NCBI RefSeq assembly: GCF_949628265.1
Contig: NC_088787.1
Span: forward strand, 9,166,501-9,230,500
Length of the DNA stretch: 64,000 bases
Source of the DNA: Cloeon dipterum
Taxonomy: Eukaryota > Arthropoda > Insecta > Ephemeroptera > Baetidae
Reading direction: 5' to 3'
Under the pieces are notes generated by a model, which was not told the DNA's origin, did not search any database, and worked only from the letters and a program-made list of their open reading frames with translations. Position numbers and translations under genes: made by a program. Of this stretch, positions 48,601 to 50,222 are shown one piece after another (the stretch's first letter is position 1; every line of letters starts with the position of its first letter).

Positions 48601-50077
48601 CTGGAGGCCATGGGGGTGAAGCTGAATGCAAGCAACGGAAAGATCATTGCTGACGAAGGAGAAAAATCGACCACCGGGCACATCCACGCGATTGGCGACG
48701 TGCTTGATGGAAAACTTGAGCTCACTCCTGTCGCCATCCAGGCAGGAAAGTTGCTTGTCAGGGTGAGTTGAACCTATCATAACTGTATATTTAATTTTTC
48801 GACTTATGTTTAAAATAAATTCAAAGATTTATATCATTTCTGGTAATTTTTCATATTATTTTAATTTTTTAGTGCTAAAAATATTTAAAAAACGAGTTTT
48901 CTGATTCTCCAAGGAGAGATAGTTTTTAAAATTGTTTTTTAAAACAACAATTTTAATTTTAAAATGACCGTTAAACAGCTAAATTATTGCCTAATTGCTA
49001 ATAAAGTATATAAATTCTTTGCAATCAACATTTGAGAGTAGTTAAAATTAATTCTTATTATTTTCTTCCCTCTATTTTTTCAGAGATTGTACACAACTAG
49101 TGAGGCTTTGACTGACTACGCAAACGTGCCGACGACCGTGTTCACTCCGCTGGAGTACGGCTGCGTTGGCCTGTCTGAAGAAGATGCCTTGGCCAAGTAT
49201 GGCGCAGAAAACATTGAGGTGTACCACACACACTTTCAGCCGCTAGAGTACGCACTGTCCAAGCGAGACCAGTTCAAGTCTTACGGCAAGCTGGTTTGCG
49301 TCAAAAACGAGAATGTAGGATTTTTTTAAACTAATTTCTATCTTAATCTGATGGATTTGTGTCATCACAGTACCGCGTGGTCGGTTTCCACGTTTTGGGT
49401 CCAAACGCCGGTGAAATCACGCAGGGCTACGCGCTCGGAATCAAGTTGGGCGCCACGAAAGCCGACTTTGCCAACCTGATCGGAATCCACCCCACTTGCG
49501 CCGAGGTAAGTGCTGCAGAGAGTTCAATTCTCATTTCATTGGGAGATTTAAAATATAAACAGGAGACAGTGAAGTTGCACCTCCTGGCAAACTTGTGATT
49601 CTTTAAGACTGATTTTCCTTTGAGTGGCTTGAAGGTACTTCATTTTTCTCCGTTCATTTGTCCACGTTATAGTTTTGAGGAGCTCAAAAATTATTTATGT
49701 AAATTAAATATAGTCATACTCTGTCGAGTTTGAAATTTCAAGAATCTGATCTGTATTTATCTTGCTGTATTTTTGAGAGCTGACAGTTCAAACAGCTATT
49801 GAAACTTAAATTTCAAATTCATGTTTTACAAAAAAGGAAGTTTTTTTGGATAATGCAGTTTCTACCCTGGTTCAAGGAAACTTAGTTGAGTTATTTTAAA
49901 TATATGAAGTATTTTGGTTTGACAACTGCCTGAAACTTATCATATTTTTTAATTCAATTATGTTGCACTTAAGACTGTTCCTCACCGTTGCATTAATTGT
50001 GATTGCAGAACTTCACCACGATGGACGTGAGCAAGTCTTCGGGCATCAGCGTGGCGAGCAAAAGCTGCTGAGGTTAG
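45660..50077 (+). CDS. TrxR: Glutaredoxin-fused thioredoxin reductase, selenoprotein (C-terminal Ser-Cys-Sec-Gly)
   Basis: Ten coding exons: 45660 (or 45732)-45821, 45881-45944, 46007-46224, 47382-47574, 47630-47772, 47895-48275, 48505-48762, 49084-49314, 49371-49505 and 50009-50077. From the ATG at 45732 this gives 593 residues with Sec. Order: an N-terminal glutaredoxin-like domain with CPFC ([10 protein letters not shown]), the FAD-binding GGGSGG, the redox pair in GGTCVNVGC, the NADPH domain with VGASYIALE, and the dimer interface with the catalytic HPTCAE. The last exon ends AGC TGC TGA GGT TAG, that is Ser-Cys-Sec-Gly-stop, the animal selenoprotein ending, with TGA at 50069-50071. A SECIS-like element follows in the 3' UTR. 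The enzyme uses NADPH to reduce thioredoxin. An upstream in-frame ATG (45660) adds 24 residues rich in Arg and without acids, resembling a mitochondrial presequence. AATAAA lies at 50356-50361. Confidence 0.93.
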
Positions 50078-50078
50078 A

Positions 50079-50121
50079 GCAGCTGCCAGTCGCACCTAAA
50101 CTTTAGGTCGCTGGCAGCTGC
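50079..50121 (+). promoter_or_regulatory. Strong hairpin just downstream of the TGA-Sec and stop codons
   Basis: GCAGCTGCCAG (50079-50089) pairs perfectly with CTGGCAGCTGC (50111-50121). The inner CCTAAA/TTTAGG also pairs, giving an almost fully paired stem of about 18-20 base pairs. It begins 7 bases after the UGA. Its position recalls the selenocysteine redefinition elements known in some selenoprotein mRNAs; a role here is inferred. Confidence 0.6.
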
Positions 50122-50149
50122 CACGACTGCTGGATCCTCGTTATAGTTC

Positions 50150-50222
50150 CTCCTGGGACTTTGTATGACGACTGAGCTCCAAACCTCGACCATGAGGAGG
50201 GCCCAGTCCGAGATCGAGGCCG
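50150..50222 (+). promoter_or_regulatory. SECIS element (selenocysteine insertion sequence), type II-like
   Basis: ATGA at 50165-50168 and GA at 50210-50211 can form the non-Watson-Crick quartet. GACTGAGCTCC pairs with GGAGGGCCCAGTC, with AAA at 50181-50183 in the apical bulge. CCTC-GACCAT-GAGG then makes the extra mini-stem of a type II SECIS. It sits about 95 bases after the Sec codon, in the 3' UTR, as expected. SBP2 binding is the known role of this fold. Confidence 0.8.

Follow-up and report, generated by a model that had tools for sequence, protein, structure and literature searches.

The window analysed here is a 64,000-nucleotide stretch of the Cloeon dipterum genome (C2:9166501-9230500), taken from a 190.1-Mb assembly of 10 contigs. 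Contigs C1 to C5 measure 43.2, 37.5, 37.1, 36.4, and 33.2 Mb, respectively, approximately 187 of the 190 Mb, and their sizes suggest five chromosomes. A gene of 10 coding exons with GT/AG junctions lies on the forward strand, joined into a single frame from 45660 to 50077 that comprises 617 sense codons, one TGA at 50069-50071 being counted among them, and the final TAG at 50075-50077. That TGA is the sole internal stop of the frame, and a GGT codon (Gly) stands between it and the TAG. The features of the locus, in coordinates of the window, are as follows:

45660-45821 (+): coding exon 1, with ATG 45660 and a 24-letter leader, the second ATG at 45732, and the start of the glutaredoxin domain with CPFC
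45881-45944 (+): coding exon 2, glutaredoxin domain
46007-46224 (+): coding exon 3, end of the glutaredoxin domain and start of the FAD domain
47382-47574 (+): coding exon 4, redox motif CVNVGC
47630-47772 (+): coding exon 5
47895-48275 (+): coding exon 6
48505-48762 (+): coding exon 7
49084-49314 (+): coding exon 8, start of the dimerisation domain
49371-49505 (+): coding exon 9
50009-50077 (+): last coding exon, ending TGC TGA GGT TAG, predicted to read Cys-Sec-Gly-stop
50069-50071 (+): UGA codon, with a predicted selenocysteine (Sec) reading
50079-50121 (+): GC-rich 19-bp hairpin, arms 50079-50089 and 50111-50121 plus an inner stem
50157-50220 (+): SECIS element of form 2, with ATGA 50165-50168, AAA 50181-50183, GA 50210-50211, and the mini-stem CCTC/GAGG
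50356-50361 (+): AATAAA polyadenylation signal, read from the sequence

The gene is flanked by two others on the reverse strand, at 43100-44452, which we take to be an eIF3 subunit i-like WD40 gene, and at 51655-52050, presumably a patched-like sterol-sensing-domain gene, both being named from their motifs.

The earlier note had described the product as a thioredoxin reductase (TrxR) selenoprotein. The Sec end and the SECIS held up on analysis, whereas the designation as a plain TrxR did not. Judged from its domains, the product is a TGR, that is, a glutaredoxin-TrxR fusion, because it begins with a glutaredoxin domain carrying CPFC. This domain (PF00462) was detected by Pfam at residues 41-104 with 56.6 bits (cut-off 22.9), and CPFC is a glutaredoxin active site of the dithiol type. 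It can be observed that both parts of a TGR are present, namely the N-terminal dithiol glutaredoxin domain and a TrxR module with CVNVGC and a predicted C-terminal Cys-Sec-Gly. The NCBIfam TGR model TIGR01438 matched with 705 bits (cut-off 475.85), covering residues 130-617 only, and TIGR02180 scored 83.2 bits, just below its cut-off of 87.25. When the N-terminal half was used as the query, the top PDB matches were the TGRs of the flatworm Schistosoma. Those enzymes (PDB 2x8c and 4la1) likewise have a CPxC glutaredoxin domain fused to TrxR, the motif being CPFC here and in the 4la1 chain and CPYC in the S. mansoni chain; in comparison with the flatworm TGR, the genome of the present Sec gene also holds a second, Cys-type TrxR. 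The reductase domain is 61% identical to that of mammalian TrxR1 (PDB 1h6v and 2zz0), with the Sec column in common, whereas a glutaredoxin domain is absent from the solved TrxR1 chains and the mammalian tail is GC-(Sec)-G rather than SC-UGA-G. The filarial TrxR of Brugia (PDB 7p0x), which scored 651 bits with the Sec gene, also combines a glutaredoxin-like domain with a Sec TrxR; however, its glutaredoxin domain is described as having neither the dithiol motif nor activity (PMC8914392), whereas CPFC is present in the TGR here. Regarding the N-terminus, the leader that starts at ATG 45660 is basic with zero acidic residues, ATG 45732 lies just ahead of the glutaredoxin domain, and two earlier ATGs of the same frame end in a stop directly before 45660. 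From the two ATGs, mitochondrial and cytosolic forms of the TGR are predicted.

The last exon finishes TGC TGA GGT TAG, exactly as had been read before, and its tail KSC-UGA-G is in register with the end of mammalian TrxR1, whose PDB chain has Cys at the UGA column. In homologues the column into which the UGA falls is Sec or Cys. No other reading of this codon comes close to selenocysteine, and the gene very probably encodes a TGR selenoprotein in which the UGA at 50069-50071 would be translated as Sec.

The SECIS that had been proposed for the 3′ UTR was also recovered. The element at 50157-50220 has the ATGA/AA/GA core of a selenoprotein SECIS and matched Rfam SECIS_1 over all 64 model positions with 26.8 bits (E = 0.0035 in a search of 411 bases with 4227 families), a score below the curated gathering threshold of 35. 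It is assigned to form 2 because of the ATGA, the helix (about ten positions with one mismatch), the AAA, the CCTC/GAGG mini-stem, and the closing GA. At gathering thresholds Rfam returned 0 matches of any family in the whole window, and the TGR element was absent from a genome-wide SECIS_1 search in which 133 of 3197 candidates were scored. A scan for the core motif (ATGA, AA 9-13 nt further on, GA, and a paired helix, with a limit of -8 kcal/mol), written after the site had been seen, was applied to both strands of the 64 kb. Only 50157-50220 fell below -13 kcal/mol (-13.7), the remaining sites within the limit being at -9.3, -9.3, and -8.0 kcal/mol. Applied 3′ of four other genes (2.2-4.5 kb each), the same scan found the element of SelH, at -21.8 kcal/mol, and no SECIS downstream of the Cys TrxR, Cys GPx, and SPS genes. 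The TGR segment is no more stable than its shuffles (z = -0.95), and therefore its case rests on motif and position.

The earlier note had made the Sec reading depend on tRNA-Sec and eEFSec, and both were found in the genome, together with SepSecS. The tRNA-Sec(TCA) at C5:4995222-4995307 scored 75.3 bits (cut-off 47), in agreement with ARAGORN, and three weaker matches are tRNA-Ser. The third domain of eEFSec was detected on C3 (107.3 bits, cut-off 27). SepSecS is represented on C1 by six matched stretches over model positions 24-444 (best E 1.9e-52), each of them singly below the whole-protein cut-off. A probable PSTK exon gave one weak match of 25.5 bits (whole-protein cut-off 382) and carries DDNFYY, which we take to be a PSTK motif. 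The look-up suggested in the note was less fruitful for the other two factors: SBP2 was not recognised among eight PF01248 (L7Ae) matches in the genome, and the SPS locus has a UGA with no SECIS located. In selenoprotein-less insect genomes, tRNA-Sec, EFsec, and pstk are reported as missing or doubtful, as is SecS with the exception of the honey bee, while SBP2 was retained in some (PMC2500217). For this reason tRNA-Sec, eEFSec, PSTK, and SepSecS are the telling factors.

Three other readings of the UGA were weighed. In the first, a near-cognate tRNA decodes the codon by a non-Sec readthrough aided by the adjacent hairpin; the chemistry of TrxR speaks against it, since a residue other than Sec or Cys is expected to abolish activity. 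The hairpin after the UGA is indeed very stable, readthrough can be favoured by structures next to a stop, and a non-Sec readthrough has been put forward for SPS1-UGA in Hymenoptera (PMC4561486, PMC8704476). The present gene, however, is followed by a SECIS, and its genome encodes tRNA-Sec and eEFSec, unlike in Hymenoptera; near-cognate decoding is very unlikely. Still more improbable is termination at the UGA as an ordinary stop, giving an enzyme that ends ...SKSC. UGA is a standard stop and stopping would cost only two residues, Sec and Gly, but a Gly codon and a stop come next, matching the aligned TrxR1 chains, with a SECIS behind, and TrxR without Sec is reported to be devoid of thioredoxin reductase activity (PMC2268967). 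Finally, an alternative last exon that swaps the UGA tail for a Cys tail, leaving the Sec form as a minor product, is barely conceivable and was rejected: it was a logical possibility raised in the earlier note for which no support was found, the + strand of 49506-53000 contains no other tail-like peptide (ungapped scores of 98 for the tail and 14 for the next best), and the Cys enzyme is a separate gene on C5.

With Sec as the preferred reading, the SECIS of the 3′ UTR would bring the Sec machinery encoded by the genome to the ribosome, which would then decode the UGA at 50069-50071 as selenocysteine. By analogy with known TGRs, electrons would pass from NADPH to FAD, then to CVNVGC, and then to the Cys-Sec tail on the partner subunit, which may hand them on either to thioredoxin or to the glutaredoxin domain of the fusion. 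With these two outlets, a single enzyme could supply the thioredoxin pathway as well as the glutathione pathway. No glutathione reductase gene was seen among the genome matches to the TGR query, a query not dedicated to it; beyond the two TrxR genes, the other matches are presumably monothiol glutaredoxin and dihydrolipoamide dehydrogenase, named from recognised motifs. Overall, the TGR is a mostly ordinary selenoprotein, and it is useful for the history of insect selenoproteins.

The second TrxR gene (C5:1789000-1798500, L038) has a mitochondrial-like leader and the end ...QACCS. It scored 633 bits with Drosophila TrxR, 616 with mouse TrxR2, and 551 with rat TrxR1, while the Sec gene scored 697 bits with rat TrxR1, its top full-length match, 693 with Schistosoma TGR, 602 with TrxR2, and 525 with Drosophila TrxR (2nvk). 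In a tree of eight sequences, two of them partial and with one other arthropod, the C5 gene grouped with Drosophila TrxR at a support of 100/99, and the split between TrxR2, the C5 gene, and the fly enzyme on one side and the Sec gene, TrxR1, and TGR on the other received 91/92. The Sec gene was placed weakly (66/69) with TrxR1 rather than with the flatworm TGR, and a clade of the Sec gene and flatworm TGR was not rejected by the AU test (p = 0.10). By the same test, clades of the Sec gene with fly TrxR (p = 0.000163), with the C5 gene (p = 0.00006), and with both (p = 0.008) were all rejected.

On scores, tree, and AU test, Drosophila TrxR is ruled out as the orthologue of the Sec gene. This Cys-Cys enzyme (PDB 2nvk and 3dgh) belongs to the same superfamily, with 51% identity to the Sec gene, and its counterpart is likely the Cys TrxR on C5. 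The claim made before about flies requires correction accordingly: the Cys-Cys form (SCCS) exists, as stated, but as a paralogue, and the loss of selenoproteins does not apply to Drosophila melanogaster, for which three are reported (PMC4244043). The best reading of these sequence relationships is that both genes were present in an ancestor and that only the Cys one was retained in flies. In flies, the Sec gene was probably lost outright, not converted to a Cys form. The occurrence of a Sec TGR and a fly-like Cys TrxR in one genome suggests loss of the Sec gene and not replacement of Sec in place, the function passing to an older Cys paralogue of the TrxR2 side. Surveys of insect selenoproteins list fly TrxR simply as a Cys homologue.

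A few other selenoprotein families were searched in the genome. The SelH gene (L023, C2:12996500-13001500) contains CKS-UGA, its Cys codon being split by an intron, and the SECIS in its 3′ UTR (L023:3143-3211) scored 23.6 bits. The best genome-wide SECIS_1 match, among the 133 of 3197 candidates scored, reached 32.5 bits at C3:35012487-35012551 on the minus strand, 35 nt past the stop of a four-exon gene (35013156-35012587, minus; L025, C3:35010000-35016500). The protein of this gene has a hydrophobic, signal-like start, the motif SGG-UGA-HLG, and a KEDL end that resembles ER retention. With Cys at the UGA, the Pfam Sep15/SelM redox domain was matched at residues 33-85 with 16.5 bits (cut-off 26), and with X at the UGA there was no Pfam Sep15/SelM match; the gene is tentatively regarded as a Sep15/SelM-like selenoprotein. 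Beside a further genome-wide SECIS_1 match of 23.3 bits, no gene was recognised by eye. The GPx (ASKCG) and MsrA (LGCFW) genes carry Cys, as do the SelT gene and the SelW-like gene, and the stops inside the GPx, MsrA, and SelW-like matches were read as intron. One SPS locus was found (L021, C4:4620500-4627000), with a UGA at L021:1040 in the active-site motif; no second SPS gene was seen in the genome, and no SECIS was found in 3.2 kb downstream. A stem-loop of -29.6 kcal/mol forms in the 60 nt after its UGA. With a UGA and no SECIS found, this locus resembles the SPS1-UGA genes as described by Mariotti et al. 2015 (PMC4561486).

The genome may represent an intermediate stage, with a centipede (20 reported selenoproteins) on one side and Drosophila (three) on the other, because GPx, MsrA, SelT, and the SelW-like gene carry Cys while TGR, SelH, and the Sep15/SelM-like gene carry a UGA and a SECIS. 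For the centipede a Sec TrxR is reported, and holometabolous insects are said in the same source to have Cys forms only (PMC4244043). The bristletail Machilis is listed with seven selenoproteins (PMC5330540), and therefore Sec use in early insects is expected. In a literature search, no report was found of an arthropod TGR with a glutaredoxin domain, of a hemimetabolous Sec TrxR, or of selenocysteine in a mayfly, and the main text of the Cloeon dipterum genome paper mentions neither selenoprotein nor thioredoxin (PMC7250882). The Sec TrxR itself is already known; the paralogy result and the hairpin behind the UGA were not found in print, the sources being covered mostly at the level of their abstracts.

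That hairpin begins 7 nt after the UGA, past the TAG and in the 3′ UTR. It folds to -31.6 kcal/mol (z = -6.55), and 0 of 200 shuffles were as stable. Both strands of the window were sampled in 21,316 segments of 54 nt, of which six were at least as stable, four of them belonging to the hairpin and two lying at 30403-30462. A genome search returned only the hairpin itself and its own reverse complement, with no second copy, a result that does not prove rarity. Origin as a dispersed repeat was rejected, there being no other genome copy, as was a bacterial-type terminator (0 terminators found), and 44 pattern matches in viral contigs included 0 relatives.

SREs are stem-loops close behind the UGA in selenoprotein mRNAs and are said to promote UGA decoding (PMC8704476). 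As in SELENON, SELENOT, and SPS2, the putative element of the TGR gene is a stem-loop only a few nucleotides 3′ of the Sec UGA, with a 7-nt spacer. The SREs described in the sources consulted follow internal UGAs, whereas the one in the TGR gene is located in the 3′ UTR, after the true stop. On balance it is probable that 50079-50121 is a chance palindrome or the remnant of a mobile element, with no recoding role. The similarly stable GC-rich hairpin at about 30403-30462 and the inverted repeat at 29032-29117 have no known role, and the 60 nt after the SelH UGA, read one base off, fold only to -15.0 kcal/mol; against chance stand the z of -6.55, the absence of a further genome copy in the search, and the site 7 nt after the Sec UGA. 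That the hairpin is an SRE placed beyond the true stop codon, with a recoding role by analogy with those known, is a tentative and rather unlikely reading. If it holds, the TGR mRNA would have a two-part recoding signal in its 3′ UTR, composed of a proximal hairpin and the SECIS, and readthrough-type hairpins by the UGA may serve more than one gene here, SPS having one and SelH none as stable. The hairpin is a testable case of a recoding element sited after the stop.

Elsewhere in the window, the GC-rich hairpin at about 30397-30462 reaches -33.4 kcal/mol per 54 nt and is the only other place as stable. A perfect inverted repeat of 24 nt occupies 29032-29055 and 29094-29117, with a 38-nt spacer and a GC content of 0.62.
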